DNA of 42,721 nt from Pseudomonadota bacterium (GCA_018823135.1 JAHJJF010000103.1:1-42721); one strand, 5' to 3'; shown: positions 32,261 to 40,420, counted from the stretch's first letter. The notes: generated by a model from the letters alone, not told the origin. Numbers and translations are program-made.

Positions 32261-34789
32261 TCATTCCGGATCCAGGGCAAGGCGGAATCCGAGATATTTA
32301 AATTTGAAATACGGCATGTACCTGCCGCGATATGCGGCGCGGACATTATCTCTATAGTAGGACCAGCTGCCTCCCCGAACGACTCGGCTCGTGCCTGTTG
32401 TCGGGCCCTGTGGATTTTTGCCGGGGCTTATTCCATAATAGGTGTCGCTGTACCAGTCACTGCACCATTCCCAGACATTGCCGCTCATATCATGAATTCC
32501 CAGCTGGTTGGGATTTTTGGTCCCTACTTCCCAGGTATGGCCTTTACTGTTTTCCATATACCACGCCACGGCATCCACATCATCACCACCGGAATACTTC
32601 TGGTTCATACCGCGGCTCCGTGCCGCAAACTCCCACTCAGCCTCGGTGGGTAATCGGAATTTTTTTCCCGTCAACCCTTTGAGCTTTTCAAGATATTTCT
32701 GCGCATCATCCCATGAAACACGCTCAACTGGGAAATCGGCCCCATTTTTGAAATGGGAAGGGTTGTCCCCCAAAACACTCTGCCAATTCCCCTGGGTCAC
32801 CTCGTATTTTGCAATATAATAATCATCAAGGCAAACTTTATGGACCGGCTTTTCAAACTGGTTGCCAATGTCAAAGGTGTCACCCATTTTAAAACAGCCG
32901 CCCTTGACAAAAATCATGTCTCCGACAAGTTTTGCCATGAGACGTTCCCGGGCCAGTTCTTTTTCTTTTTCGTCTATCCGGACTTTAACATTCGTGATGA
33001 GTTCATCAAGGCCGGCCAGAGTCGGCATGAGCGCTTTCGCTGCCATATACTTTTGCAGGGCCTGCACAAACTCCAATGCCTTTTCTAACGCTATTCCTTC
33101 AACGACAAACCCCTTTGCACCGGCCAGTAGAGCTCGTGAAGCTGCCTCATTTTGCAGTTTCCTTAGAAGTACCCATGCGCTGGCGACCCCGGGATCATCA
33201 TTCTTAAGTGCCTCTGCCTCCTCAAGATAGTTTTCCGCCTCGGTAAACTTCTCTTTGTTCATGGCATTTTCAGCCTTAATCACCAGCTTTTTGATCTGCG
33301 CTTCTATCAGCCGGTCTCGCTCGTCTGGTTCAACCCAATCTCCCTGGTATTTAACCAGATTGCCGCCGGTGAGTTTCATGTCCAGATGAGCAGTCTGGTC
33401 GATGAGAATTTCAACTTCCTTTTCAGCAGGATAATACCTGTCTGCATGGATGCTGATTGTATGAATGCCTGCCGGGATTGCCTCTAGTGTCAGCGGGGTA
33501 CGTTCCTCTATTTGTTTGCCATCAAGGGCAACAACCCCTGATTCAGGGGTTGAGGTTATTCTGATGCCGCCTTTTCCAGGCGTAAGGGAGTAATTTGTCT
33601 CTACTGTCTGATCCTTTTCTAATTCCACCTCCCTGGTAAGATCGAGGAAATACTTCTTCTGCAACAGGAGAGTAAACTTTCCAGAAGGCAGAGCATTTCC
33701 AGTAAAGGGCGTCTCCCCCAACTCCCTTTTGTCCAGATAGACTCTTGCTCCGGAAGGTTCTGAAGTGATCGATAACGTCACTGTCCCTGTAGCGAATGCA
33801 TCAAATTCTGAGGAATTTTCAATGACTGGCGCATCTTCAATTGAGAAAACTTTCTCAACTTCCTTTTCATGTGCCGGGATAACTACTGGTAGCGGAATAT
33901 TCTTTGCGGGGCTGTTCTGCTGATCCAAGAGGATCGGCGCCCAATAAATTCCAACCGCGACAAAAAGAAGAAAGACCACACCTATCAGAATCCAGTGCTG
34001 TGATGATTTCTTGGGTTTTGTTGTTTTTTGGGGTTGGGGATCTTTCTTTTTCACCTCTTTAATTGATGGCTCCGGGTCACTCACCTCTGCGGCAGAGGCA
34101 CCGGAAACCTTCTCTTCAACATTGGTCGACAAGGGAGATTCCTGTTCCTGAACAGAATGGACTGGTTGAACCTCGTCAACAATTAATGGTTCCGGAGGTT
34201 GCTCTTCTGTGGCGGAAAGTCCTAAAACATCTTCAGTGCCTGAGTCCATGGGGGGCAGAAAAAAACCTGCCTCAATCTGATCTATTGCCTCCAGCAGAGT
34301 CCCGGCATTCTGGAATCTGCGGCCAGGATCAACGGCCAGAAGCTGGTCAAGCAGGGACTGATACTGGATCAACATTACCGGCAGATCAGGGAATGAAATA
34401 AGAGATGATTCCGGGCTTAACGGTGGAAGCTTCCTGGTCAGCATCTCATAAAAGACCACACCAAGACTGTAAAGATCAGACCTGGCGTCAATCTCCGACC
34501 CATGAGCCTGTTCCGGACTCATGTAAGGGTCCTGGGCACCCGAACCGTTGCCGCTATGAGATGATTTTTTTGAACGGGAAATTTCGAAATTGGAAAGAGT
34601 TGTTGCTCCGGATTCCTGAAATGTGACGTTTTCAGGCCTGATATGACCATGAACAAAACCCTGTTGATGAACATAAACAAGGGCGCTGGCTAATTGACGG
34701 AGGATCGCAAATGCATCGCCCGAAGAAAGATCTTTGCCGATGTGTTTCCGCAGAGTATTGCCTTCAGGGTTTTCGGTAGAAATCGTCAT
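32261..34789 (-). CDS. Kinase C-lobe (pseudokinase) - TM - PEGA x2 - FGE-like domain protein
   Basis: An 842-residue inner-membrane protein. Residues 1-173 form only the C-lobe of a Ser/Thr kinase: the sequence begins at the hinge (ENPEGNTLRKHI), so the glycine loop and ATP-binding lysine are absent. The catalytic HRD is HGH (47-49), the DFG is NFE (67-69), while MSPEQ (90-94) and DLYSLGVVFYEML remain. It is therefore probably not an active kinase. A charged linker (about 185-263) precedes a membrane helix (about 266-287), two PEGA domains (about 337-470), a helical region (about 480-620) and a C-terminal formylglycine-generating-enzyme-like domain (about 625-840; RLPTEAEWEFAARS, MSGNVWEWCSDWY, RVVRGGSW). 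The active-site cysteines of FGE are missing (RAAYRGRYMP), so it is likely a binding domain facing the periplasm. Confidence 0.85.
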   Translation of the reverse strand: MTISTENPEGNTLRKHIGKDLSSGDAFAILRQLASALVYVHQQGFVHGHIRPENVTFQESGATTLSNFEISRSKKSSHSGNGSGAQDPYMSPEQAHGSEIDARSDLYSLGVVFYEMLTRKLPPLSPESSLISFPDLPVMLIQYQSLLDQLLAVDPGRRFQNAGTLLEAIDQIEAGFFLPPMDSGTEDVLGLSATEEQPPEPLIVDEVQPVHSVQEQESPLSTNVEEKVSGASAAEVSDPEPSIKEVKKKDPQPQKTTKPKKSSQHWILIGVVFLLFVAVGIYWAPILLDQQNSPAKNIPLPVVIPAHEKEVEKVFSIEDAPVIENSSEFDAFATGTVTLSITSEPSGARVYLDKRELGETPFTGNALPSGKFTLLLQKKYFLDLTREVELEKDQTVETNYSLTPGKGGIRITSTPESGVVALDGKQIEERTPLTLEAIPAGIHTISIHADRYYPAEKEVEILIDQTAHLDMKLTGGNLVKYQGDWVEPDERDRLIEAQIKKLVIKAENAMNKEKFTEAENYLEEAEALKNDDPGVASAWVLLRKLQNEAASRALLAGAKGFVVEGIALEKALEFVQALQKYMAAKALMPTLAGLDELITNVKVRIDEKEKELARERLMAKLVGDMIFVKGGCFKMGDTFDIGNQFEKPVHKVCLDDYYIAKYEVTQGNWQSVLGDNPSHFKNGADFPVERVSWDDAQKYLEKLKGLTGKKFRLPTEAEWEFAARSRGMNQKYSGGDDVDAVAWYMENSKGHTWEVGTKNPNQLGIHDMSGNVWEWCSDWYSDTYYGISPGKNPQGPTTGTSRVVRGGSWSYYRDNVRAAYRGRYMPYFKFKYLGFRLALDPE

Positions 34790-37362: not shown

Positions 37363-37977
37363 TCAACCGCCGGGAATGATGAGCGCCTCGGCGTTTTCAG
37401 AGACATACCAGTAAAGCGCCCGGGCGGCAGAGGGTTCCATCAGCAACATAACATTAACAAGGCGCCTTTTATCTCCGCCCCTGATGATTTTCGGCAGTCG
37501 GGCGGTTAACTCCCAGGCCCAGCGGTGCATGTGGCGGGCGAGACCGGCGTCGGGAGAATCAGCAACCACCGTCAGTTCAATACCTTCCTTGAAATGCATG
37601 ATAAAATGCGTTGGCATGTGGGCAAGTTCCAGGGCCATAACCTTGTCGCCAGCGTTTTTTCCTCCGGGACGAATTTCGCGTCGCTCCGGCGCCTGAAAGG
37701 ATTCTTTTCTCTCAAAATTAATCAGCTCGACACCCAAAGCGTCGCCCCTGAACCGAATATTGTTTATGGGAAACGATTGCAGCTGCAAGCTTTTAGCCTT
37801 GAGCTGGATCTTCTTGCCGCGAAGGTCGAACACGGCGTAAATCCGATCCTTTTTTGCCAGTGCGAGTTCTATTTCAAGTTGTTGTTTTTCGTCCTTTCGG
37901 ATATCGGCCAGACTGTTTGCCGACTCCGGAAAGGAAAAGGCCAGAAGAAAAAGCAGAAGAGTAAACAAGGATGCCAT
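37363..37977 (-). CDS. Secreted protein of unknown function in envelope operon
   Basis: A 204-residue protein with an N-terminal signal peptide (about 1-22, LFTLLLFLLAFSFPESANS), expected in the periplasm. The rest is predicted mixed alpha/beta with no cysteines and no motif I recognise; FDLRGKKIQLKAKSLQLQSF and the HFKEGIELTVVADSPDAG stretch are the most regular parts. The start overlaps the L,D-transpeptidase stop (TGATG), so it is translated with that enzyme and probably acts in the same cell-wall process. It is the last gene of the unit. Confidence 0.75.
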   Translation of the reverse strand: MASLFTLLLFLLAFSFPESANSLADIRKDEKQQLEIELALAKKDRIYAVFDLRGKKIQLKAKSLQLQSFPINNIRFRGDALGVELINFERKESFQAPERREIRPGGKNAGDKVMALELAHMPTHFIMHFKEGIELTVVADSPDAGLARHMHRWAWELTARLPKIIRGGDKRRLVNVMLLMEPSAARALYWYVSENAEALIIPGG

Positions 37978-38630
37978 CAGAATATCATTACCTTTGCGCC
38001 GATGGGCACGGTTTGGTAGAGGCGTTTGAGATCCTCGTCAGCCATCCGGATACATCCGTGCGTGACATTCCTGCCCAGGAGCCGGGTATAAAGAGTCCCG
38101 TGAATAAAATAGCCGTTGCCGATACCAACAGCATATTCACCGAGTCCTCCGGCTTCAATACGGTCATTGTATGACTTGGGAATTGCTTCACCCTCCTCGA
38201 TAAACGCCCAGTCAGGTTTGACCCAGTAAGGTTTACGGGTTTTTGAACCAACGGAGAAAACGCCGCGGGGGGTGTCAAAGATCCACTTTCTTTCCCCGGA
38301 AGGATCCTGAAGCACGTTGCCGCTGCCTGTGGAAACCAGCGCCCGGTGAAGGGTTTGCTCTCCTTTTCTGATGAAGAGGAGGTTTTGCCCCGTATCGATA
38401 ACCACGTGAATTCCCTGAGGAGACAAGGCGTTCAGCTTTTTCCTGAGCGCTGCAACATCGTCACCTTTTCTATTCTTTGCTTTTGTGGGAGCGGGCGCGG
38501 CAATCCCCGCATTGCCATCCGGGATTTTCGGAAAACCGAAAAAAAATAATGCCCCACCTGCCAGCATGACCGCGCCGAACAGGAGTATTTTAGTCTTATT
38601 TGCCCAGAGCAATGGAAACGATATTTTCAT
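37977..38630 (-). CDS. L,D-transpeptidase (YkuD domain), membrane-anchored
   Basis: A 217-residue protein from ATG 38630, where a membrane anchor begins (KTKILLFGAVMLAGGALFFF, about 12-31). The YkuD domain covers about 75-215 and ends with the catalytic signature HGTLYTRLLGRNVTHGCIRM, with the nucleophilic Cys193. L,D-transpeptidases form 3-3 peptidoglycan cross-links or attach lipoproteins to diaminopimelate. The frame is open further upstream to 38759, but those residues overlap the previous gene deeply; even from 38630 the genes overlap by 35 nt. The ribosome site is weak, suggesting coupling. Confidence 0.9.
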   Translation of the reverse strand: MKISFPLLWANKTKILLFGAVMLAGGALFFFGFPKIPDGNAGIAAPAPTKAKNRKGDDVAALRKKLNALSPQGIHVVIDTGQNLLFIRKGEQTLHRALVSTGSGNVLQDPSGERKWIFDTPRGVFSVGSKTRKPYWVKPDWAFIEEGEAIPKSYNDRIEAGGLGEYAVGIGNGYFIHGTLYTRLLGRNVTHGCIRMADEDLKRLYQTVPIGAKVMIF

Positions 38631-39687
38631 AATCAGTAACACCGACGATGGTAATTGGCGTACCGGTCTCGGCCATGTCAAACAACTCCGCCATATCGGA
38701 GTTGTCCAGGGATACGCATCCATCGGTAATTCCGTCTTTCCCCCCCCCGTGTATTTCAAGGAGGCTGCCGATGCCCGATTTTTCCGGGACCAAGCCCTTT
38801 TTTCTTGCAGAGGCGAACCGCTTCATATCCTCAGCGTTTGGATAATTGATGAGCAACGCCTTATAAAACCGGCTTTCATCATTCTTTTTTACGACGCGGT
38901 AATGCCCTTCCGGAGTAGCCTGATCCCCGGAGTAGAGTTTGTCCTTCAGTCCATTCCGACCCAGACCAACGCGATATCTCCTGATTTCAGCACCGTTTTT
39001 GAGGACAATGAGCCTCCTGTCGAGTTTACTTACCAGGATGGAAATGCCGCTGTTTTTCTGAGAACCCTGTTTTGCCGTCGCCACAAGACGCCGCCAGTGC
39101 TCAATCTGTTTTCTGTCGGCATAGCGGCCTGCGACCCGGCGCAGGGCATCCTCGGCCTGTTGCAGATAAGGATCGGCATCGCCGAGCCGAAGCATGGCCT
39201 CGTCATGTTTTTGCTGCAGCAGCATGGTCCGCGACACAGAGAGCAGGACTTCGACTCGCGTCAGAAACCTGCGCGCGACTCGTCCCTCGTTGATGGAGTC
39301 GGCCAGTGCCGCCAGGGCTTCAAGTCTCTGTTCACGGGAAGCAATGGCCTCGGTCACAACGCCGGTCCTTCGCTCCTGCTCGCTTGAGGTTTCCATGCTG
39401 ATCAACTGTCCGCGGTTATACAGCGCGCTGAATTCCTTCCGAAGCGATTCATAGTTCACGAACCAGATAAAACGCGCCCTTTCCGCAGCGAGCATTTCCC
39501 TGCACTCACGCAGTTTTGCCCGATAGGTAATAAATTCCGCGGCAGCATAAACGTCCGCTCCATCCCTCCAGAGATCCTTCTCCTGGATTTCCACCAGGTA
39601 GACCTCCGGAGGGACAGGCGGCCGGTTGCAGCCTTCCAGTAAAAAAAATGGCAGGCAGAAAATCAACGCCAGAATTTGATGCGGCAT
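38596..39687 (-). CDS. Lipoprotein L,D-transpeptidase with N-terminal helical domain
   Basis: A 363-residue protein. Signal peptide and lipobox end in FLLEGC (Cys20, followed by Asn). A long helical region (about 40-205) precedes the YkuD domain (about 214-352), which contains EIHGGGKDGITDGCVSL with catalytic Cys324. The helical part opens with DVYAAAEFITYRAKL and contains NYESLRKEF, echoing IYAAQELRTLQADL and NYDNAKQLL of the lipoprotein encoded just upstream, so the two may share a fold. It belongs to the ErfK/YbiS group able to attach proteins to peptidoglycan or cross-link it. It begins 16 bp after the upstream gene ends. Confidence 0.9.
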   Translation of the reverse strand: MPHQILALIFCLPFFLLEGCNRPPVPPEVYLVEIQEKDLWRDGADVYAAAEFITYRAKLRECREMLAAERARFIWFVNYESLRKEFSALYNRGQLISMETSSEQERRTGVVTEAIASREQRLEALAALADSINEGRVARRFLTRVEVLLSVSRTMLLQQKHDEAMLRLGDADPYLQQAEDALRRVAGRYADRKQIEHWRRLVATAKQGSQKNSGISILVSKLDRRLIVLKNGAEIRRYRVGLGRNGLKDKLYSGDQATPEGHYRVVKKNDESRFYKALLINYPNAEDMKRFASARKKGLVPEKSGIGSLLEIHGGGKDGITDGCVSLDNSDMAELFDMAETGTPITIVGVTDYENIVSIALGK

Positions 39688-39703
39688 TTACGCAGAACCA
39701 GAC

Positions 39704-40363
39704 TTATTTCTTTACCTTTTTGGCGCTGGCGCTCTTTGCCCTCAGCTTGGCAAGCATTTCTTTTTCGGCATTCTCCTTGGCGACCTTCTCCATGGCCAGT
39801 TTCACCTGGGAGGAAATTTCATTGGCCTTCTGGGAAACGATGCCAGCCTTTTCAGTTGCACCGGCATATTCACCGGCATCAATCAAGGGCTGAATGGTAT
39901 ACATTGATTCTTCAAGACCGTTGAGGTCTGCACCCATGGCCTCGATATCAGCGCGACTGCCTTTTCCTTTTGGAGCAATGGCAAGGGCGTTTTTAGCCTC
40001 GGCAAGGGAAGCCTGCGCACCCTGGAGGGCGTCGATGGAATTCAACCGCGCCTGTTCCTTGCTGGTAGCGACAACAGATCTGACCTGCTCGGAATCGCTC
40101 ATCACCTTGGCAAGCAGCTGTTTGGCATTATCATAGTTTTTCAACATTTTTCCATCCTGCACCTTGACTTCATCCAGCGCCGCTGCCAGATCAGCCTGCA
40201 AAGTCCGGAGTTCCTGCGCGGCATAGATCCCGGCACTCTCCTGGGCCACAGTTTCCACTGCGGCACGGGAAGAGCTTATTTCTTCGACTGGCTGTTTCGA
40301 ACATCCCGTGATACCTGCAACAAACATCAGAGCCACAACAATAAACCTAATCTGCTTTTTCAC
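39704..40363 (-). CDS. Helical lipoprotein ending in Lys-Lys, candidate envelope tether
   Basis: A 219-residue lipoprotein: signal peptide 1-20, lipobox GITGC with Cys21 and Ser at +2, which favours sorting to the outer membrane. The mature part is Ala/Glu/Lys-rich and almost entirely helical with heptad-like spacing. One break (APKGKGSR, about 129-136) could make it a two-helix hairpin. The chain ends KSASAKKVKK, with a terminal lysine as in Braun's lipoprotein Lpp, where that residue is linked to peptidoglycan by L,D-transpeptidases. The next two genes encode such enzymes. It resembles DUF4398-like helical lipoproteins. GGAGGATAT precedes the ATG. The tether role is inference. Confidence 0.75.
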   Translation of the reverse strand: MKKQIRFIVVALMFVAGITGCSKQPVEEISSSRAAVETVAQESAGIYAAQELRTLQADLAAALDEVKVQDGKMLKNYDNAKQLLAKVMSDSEQVRSVVATSKEQARLNSIDALQGAQASLAEAKNALAIAPKGKGSRADIEAMGADLNGLEESMYTIQPLIDAGEYAGATEKAGIVSQKANEISSQVKLAMEKVAKENAEKEMLAKLRAKSASAKKVKK

Positions 40364-40393
40364 TGCATATCCTCCATAACTGCTTGGTTGTGA

Positions 40394-40420
40394 GCGGATC
40401 GAACAGGATGTTTGATCCGC
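40394..40420 (-). promoter_or_regulatory. Leader hairpin of the envelope operon
   Basis: GCGGATCGAAC and GTTTGATCCGC pair over 11 positions (one G-T wobble) around an AGGAT loop, about 30 bp before the lipoprotein start. As an mRNA hairpin it could stabilise the transcript or affect translation of this probably abundant lipoprotein. As DNA it could be an operator. Confidence 0.4.

Follow-up and report, generated by a model that had tools for sequence, protein, structure and literature searches.

A conserved four-gene cassette encoding a stalk lipoprotein, two YkuD-domain proteins and a probable YkuD pseudoenzyme: a possible system for reversible lipoprotein-peptidoglycan linkage

The stretch of DNA analyzed here (42,721 nucleotides (nt), hereafter the window) comes from a Pseudomonadota bacterium (GCA_018823135.1, JAHJJF010000103.1:1-42721) and carries on its minus strand, from position 40363 down to 37363, a unit of four genes that encode a stalk lipoprotein, two YkuD-domain proteins (YkuD1 and YkuD2) and an exported protein of 204 amino acids (aa). 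The linkage of these genes across genomes exceeds chance and supports the view that they form one inseparable functional unit, the four products of which very probably act together. The cassette is interpreted here, tentatively, as a system for reversible linkage of a lipoprotein to peptidoglycan that is encoded within one operon, with a probability of about 0.45 for the covalent part of this reading.

The first gene (39704-40363; this and all cassette features below are on the minus strand) starts with GTG, is preceded by a ribosome-binding site (GGAGG at 40371-40375) and encodes the 219 aa lipoprotein, with the lipobox ITGC-S, an all-helical predicted structure and a basic tail ending in KKVKK. 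After a gap of 16 nt follows the gene for YkuD1 (38596-39687; 363 aa), a lipoprotein that combines a helical stalk domain with a YkuD domain similar to those of DpaA and LD-carboxypeptidases. The gene for YkuD2 (37977-38630; 217 aa), with an N-terminal membrane anchor and a catalytic domain similar to those of LdtA, LdtB and LdtC, overlaps the YkuD1 gene by 35 nt and, by 1 nt, the gene for the 204 aa protein (37363-37977), which is predicted to adopt a degenerate YkuD fold that lacks the catalytic Cys. The Pfam YkuD domain is matched by YkuD1 (E = 1.5e-17) and YkuD2 (E = 5.6e-23), and a Pfam search with the lipoprotein and the 204 aa protein of the window matched no family. An earlier note on this DNA had described a single minus-strand unit with these spacings, a lipoprotein with Ser at position +2 and a C-terminal Lys-Lys, two YkuD enzymes with intact catalytic cysteines and a secreted protein; sequence and coordinates agree with this description on each point (ITGC-S and ...SAKKVKK in the lipoprotein; TDGC, Cys324 in YkuD1; THGC, Cys193 in YkuD2).

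Searches of 395 genomes of the phylum were made with a lipoprotein profile, a YkuD1 profile and the sequence of the 204 aa protein. Strong matches (E < 1e-70 for the lipoprotein and E < 1e-150 for full-length YkuD1) to all three were found in the same 10 genomes (G000, G113, G152, G188, G203, G319, G350, G383, G397 and G402), and partial sets in none. A second collection was searched with an alignment as the query, a single-sequence query having given no matches, and the 80 best relatives of YkuD1 in it were taken as named loci; being picked by YkuD1, they are not an unbiased sample. In 72 of these 80 loci the order of the four genes is identical, and the remaining 8 run into contig ends. The loci represent at least five phyla; their record titles name Nitrospirota, Thermodesulfobacteriota, Acidobacteriota, Aminicenantota, Nitrospinota, Latescibacterota and others, although single records may hold binning errors because nearly all loci are metagenome-assembled. 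In the order to which the window belongs, few genomes carry the cassette: 2 of the 96 searched, including that of the window.

The genome from which the window derives (95% complete) encodes exactly two YkuD domains, both within the cassette, along with eight OmpA domains above the cut-off, and a search of this genome for the Lpp family (PF04728) found none. Two YkuD domains and no more are likewise encoded in 6 of the 10 other cassette genomes (7 of 11 altogether). Given that the window genome has neither a further YkuD domain nor Lpp, the cassette appears to be self-contained, and in the genomes with two YkuD domains any YkuD-dependent linkage must use this pair because there is no other. 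The proposal of the earlier note, a self-contained tether operon, accordingly survives as far as a single self-contained unit and a lipoprotein longer than, and unrelated to, Lpp are concerned, but not with regard to strict attachment through the terminal Lys or to the assignment of both YkuD proteins as attachment enzymes (see below).

The lipobox Cys of the stalk lipoprotein (Cys21, 40301-40303), with Ser at +2, is present in 74/74 aligned orthologues, in which the +2 residue is mainly Ala, Gly or Ser, that is, of the outer-membrane type. The AlphaFold2 model (mean predicted local distance difference test score, pLDDT, 92) contains helices at residues 26-47, 49-70, 78-128, 137-162 and 166-218 and would be compatible with an up-down bundle with its two ends opposite. 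The signature of the cassette lipoproteins is the APKGKG loop between two of the helices (residues 130-135, 39959-39976), in which A130, P131 and K134 are conserved in 77/77 orthologues. Lys193 (39785-39787), which directly precedes the variable tail, is a possible alternative acceptor; it is conserved in all aligned orthologues (77/77), as no other Lys close to the C-terminus is. A homologous stalk domain forms the N-terminal part of YkuD1 (39160-39627), as indicated by a profile-profile match to the lipoprotein over 163 columns (hhalign probability 97, E = 2.9e-11). Homology to Lpp was considered and rejected, the weak match being coiled-coil-like and scored against 8 sequences only; fold matches of the lipoprotein, limited to spectrin/vinculin-like helical bundles and that of the N-domain of Borrelia BB0323 (E >= 0.1), were not used.

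With DUF4398 (PF14346) lipoproteins the cassette lipoprotein shares the lipid anchor, P25, Y47 and the Lys-Lys end. The window lipoprotein itself does not match this family, but a weak match is present in 8 of 10 relatives, and the cassette orthologue of genome G188 exceeds the curated cut-off. The APKGKG loop, D146 and Lys193 set the cassette lipoproteins apart, with P131 and G133 not being retained in DUF4398-like lipoproteins without a cassette; furthermore, DUF4398 is often fused to OmpA.

YkuD1 is itself a lipoprotein (FLLEGC-N, with Cys20 present in 76/81 orthologues), and its catalytic Cys324, within TDGC (38716-38718), is conserved in 81/81 orthologues, as are His313 and Lys250, the equivalent of DpaA Lys83. 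The residue at Cys+2 is Ala, Ser, Gly or Met, and Arg is found there in 0/81. When compared with the six YkuD proteins of E. coli, the YkuD1 profile scores best with DpaA (3.1e-14), followed by LdtA (5.6e-10) and LdtC (2.2e-9), and the nearest PDB structure is also DpaA (8IKR), with the LD-carboxypeptidase Bd1075 (7O21) next and Csd6 (4XZZ), likewise an LD-carboxypeptidase, lower in the ranking. The DpaA model NF040599 is matched by all 11 YkuD1 members and is their best family, although far below the cut-off; at DpaA-specific positions, Gln86 is present in 10/81 orthologues and Arg108 is represented by Arg in 30 and Lys in 21 of 81. DpaA has been described as lacking the Arg after Cys and relying on Lys83 (PMC10653827, PMC12729407). 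The DpaA scores, the Lys83 equivalent and the lack of Arg at Cys+2 together make YkuD1 a candidate hydrolase, either an amidase or an LD-carboxypeptidase, which speaks against its earlier assignment as a second attachment enzyme.

The N-terminus of YkuD2 appears to be an uncleaved membrane anchor. The protein shows the features of YkuD enzymes of the LdtA/B/C type, namely the His, the SHGC-type motif and the Arg after Cys; the catalytic Cys193 (38052-38054) lies in a THGCIR motif, and the two His residues, the Cys and the Arg are each conserved in 77/77 orthologues. Against the same six E. coli proteins the profile yields LdtB 1.5e-18, LdtA 2.1e-17, LdtE 3.3e-15, LdtC 3.8e-14 and DpaA 0.012, and the nearest PDB entry is the L,D-transpeptidase 4LZH. 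The NCBIfam equivalog cut-off is not reached (42.3 versus 517 bits), the protein stopping at the catalytic domain. An Arg following the catalytic Cys characterises transpeptidases and is not found in DpaA (PMC10653827, PMC12729407). Because LdtB and LdtA score best and this Arg is invariant, YkuD2 is a candidate L,D-transpeptidase.

The 204 aa protein, which the earlier note had treated as a helper of unknown nature, can be described more closely. In searches with its AlphaFold2 model (pLDDT 88.6), all 50 of the PDB matches listed are L,D-transpeptidases (probability 0.80-1.00), at modest E-values (2.4e-3 to 4e-2) and template-modelling (TM) scores (~0.35), and a profile comparison aligns it with YkuD2 along almost the entire length (E = 7.8e-6, probability 84). 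No Cys is present in the window protein, and at best 11/74 orthologues share one Cys column. The most likely reading of the protein is that of a YkuD domain which has degenerated and is catalytically dead.

The C-terminal KVKK of the window lipoprotein is encoded at 39707-39718. Of 79 distinct orthologues, 48 end in Lys, 22 in Arg and 9 in other residues (Q, H, N, G, V or A), so that a basic residue occupies the last position in 89% (61% Lys, 28% Arg), compared to 26% (Lys 19%, Arg 7%) for other open reading frames (ORFs) in the same loci; a Lys is found among the last five residues in 78/79. On the tree built from both YkuD proteins, at least 16 switches between Lys and non-Lys at the last position are required. 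Given that basic residues are enriched over local ORFs and yet mixed, a basic end is selected, without a requirement for Lys at the last position. Arg clusters at the final position, being found in at most 6/79 orthologues at each of the 14 preceding positions. By the refuting condition that the earlier note had set, the idea that the terminal Lys is a strictly conserved acceptor is rejected: 31/79 orthologues end otherwise. The expectation that it would be restricted to copies next to YkuD genes was also abandoned, the opposite having been observed: stand-alone DUF4398-like lipoproteins of the phylum without YkuD neighbours (L114-L133, L148-L177) mostly end in Lys-Lys, those of similar length nearly all. 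These lipoproteins are candidates for being joined to the wall by enzymes whose genes lie at other sites. Lpp and OutB require the C-terminal Lys (PMC12274547), and in LimB and Lpg1810 non-terminal lysines serve as acceptors (PMC12274547, PMC11841132).

In the proposed mechanism, the lipid of the lipoprotein would anchor it in the outer membrane, from which the protein would extend downward like a stalk. YkuD2 would be anchored in the inner membrane and, as an L,D-transpeptidase, would link a Lys in the basic tail of the lipoprotein to the meso-diaminopimelate of a stem peptide in peptidoglycan, the acceptor being the last residue in many species and Lys193 or another tail Lys in others. YkuD1, positioned at the outer membrane through a stalk domain of its own, would cut the bond between lipoprotein and peptidoglycan or trim the stems that could serve as acceptors, and the dead YkuD domain of the 204 aa protein may bind or regulate both enzymes. 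The complete version of this scheme, in which one operon of several Lpp-less diderm phyla would encode the whole attach-and-release cycle of a tether and a dead YkuD domain as its regulator, is possible but less likely than not.

The closest parallel is the E. coli system of Lpp, LdtA/B/C and DpaA, which likewise comprises a helical outer-membrane lipoprotein with a basic, Lys-containing C-terminus, a transpeptidase of the LdtA-C kind and a DpaA-like amidase. However, Lpp is a heptad-repeat protein of 58 aa, whereas the cassette lipoprotein lacks PF04728 and has ~200 aa and several helices in its mature form. All parts of the cassette are encoded in one operon, whereas in E. coli K-12 (L137, 2422-3726) lpp directly adjoins ldtE, in convergent orientation, with LdtA/B/C and DpaA encoded elsewhere. 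The cassette further differs in its non-conserved terminal Lys, in the stalked lipoprotein form of its DpaA-like enzyme and in the additional Cys-less YkuD protein. YkuD1 resembles DpaA (LdtF/YafK, 8IKR), Bd1075 and Csd6 in the Lys83 equivalent, an aromatic residue at the position of Tyr109 and the lack of Arg at Cys+2, but differs in its N-terminal lipid and stalk domain and in the absence of Lys130/Tyr131. Coxiella LimB and Legionella Lpg1810 are outer-membrane proteins bound to peptidoglycan via lysines other than the last, as proposed here for the cassette lipoprotein of some species; they are unrelated to it, and the accessible text of the sources reports no operonic enzyme pair for them.

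Several observations weigh against a covalent link. The last residue of the lipoprotein is frequently not the Lys that Lpp and OutB need, and Lys-Lys ends are equally common in related lipoproteins without YkuD neighbours. YkuD1 remains below the DpaA equivalog cut-off (NF040599; 28.9 versus 365 bits), Gly/Leu-type residues align with DpaA Lys130/Tyr131, and the enzyme may simply be an LD-carboxypeptidase. In YkuD2 the C-terminal part of LdtA-C is absent, and this protein is also similar to LdtE, which forms 3-3 cross-links. The covalent bond is an inference from sequence. The main rival, which is quite possible although less so than the covalent reading, is a non-covalent scaffold: the lipoprotein would be an outer-membrane stalk, comparable in its logic to LpoA/LpoB, the basic tail and APKGKG loop of which contact peptidoglycan or the enzymes, while YkuD2 introduces 3-3 cross-links and tetrapeptides are shortened by YkuD1, resulting in regulated L,D-cross-linking without a wall-bound protein. 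This would fit the interchange of Lys and Arg at the C-terminus, where charge rather than Lys is conserved, the location of the invariant residues in the APKGKG loop and at Lys193 instead of the terminus, the stalk domain common to the lipoprotein and YkuD1, as expected of a docking module, and the similarity of YkuD2 to LdtE and of YkuD1 to the LD-carboxypeptidases Bd1075 and Csd6. What favours the covalent reading over such a scaffold is that, of the E. coli proteins compared, the best scores are those of YkuD2 with LdtB and LdtA, which attach proteins, and of YkuD1 with DpaA, which detaches them, and that nearly all the lipoproteins (78/79) have a Lys in the last five residues.

The other two alternatives are much less probable. 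That the genes are merely co-regulated, with the lipoprotein having an unrelated envelope role and the YkuD proteins remodelling peptidoglycan independently, is improbable: the lineage-dependent flanking genes make selection on joint expression conceivable, and DUF4398-like lipoproteins are widespread without YkuD neighbours, but the all-or-none presence across 395 genomes, the shared stalk domain and the cassette-specific conserved residues of the lipoprotein point to a closer relationship. Still less credible is a strict Braun-type tether with the terminal Lys as the sole acceptor and both YkuD proteins as attachment enzymes. The window protein does end in Lys-Lys, and a terminal Lys is over-represented in orthologues (61% versus 19% of other local ORFs); however, the last residue is Arg in 22/79 and another residue in 9/79, with at least 16 changes, and YkuD1 groups with hydrolases.

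The surroundings of the cassette vary by lineage. In about 20 of the loci L024-L103, a HAMP sensor kinase and a sigma-54-type response regulator are encoded downstream, mostly directly and on the same strand, and about 19 others have dnaK and dnaJ downstream; neither pair is present in the window. In some relatives the lipoprotein gene is immediately preceded by a gene for an additional Lys-rich protein that ends in Lys and is exported or lipid-anchored (L015, 2703-3128; L022, 8892-9293; L020, 1242-1604). In the window, a 12-pair inverted repeat (GCGGATC...GATCCGC, 40394-40420) located just upstream of the ribosome-binding site of the lipoprotein gene is possibly an operator or a hairpin. Elsewhere in the window, an 842 aa protein (32261-34789, minus strand) combines a serine/threonine-kinase-like region, PEGA domains and an FGE-sulfatase domain. 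The kinase-like region lacks the N-lobe and the customary catalytic motifs, with HGHIRPEN in place of HRDLKPEN and SNFE in place of DFG, and the protein is probably a pseudokinase fusion.

In the literature searched on DUF4398, YkuD pseudoenzymes and such a cassette, which did not extend to subscription papers and preprints, no description was found, and absence is accordingly unproven. The 204 aa proteins represent a family, not previously recognised, of probable YkuD pseudoenzymes, and the wider class of DUF4398 lipoproteins, with its tendency toward Lys-Lys ends, is of interest for wall attachment. Many diderm bacteria without Lpp, deltaproteobacteria and acidobacteria among them, possess DpaA-like enzymes, the substrate of which in these organisms has been left open (PMC8263019). 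In these groups, the cassette brings together one lipoprotein, one transpeptidase and a DpaA-like enzyme, the two YkuD genes often being the only ones in the genome, and because of this pairing the question of the substrate becomes testable with three proteins. If the reading proposed here is correct, the protein substrate that DpaA-like enzymes seem to lack in bacteria without Lpp would be provided by an attach-and-release operon.

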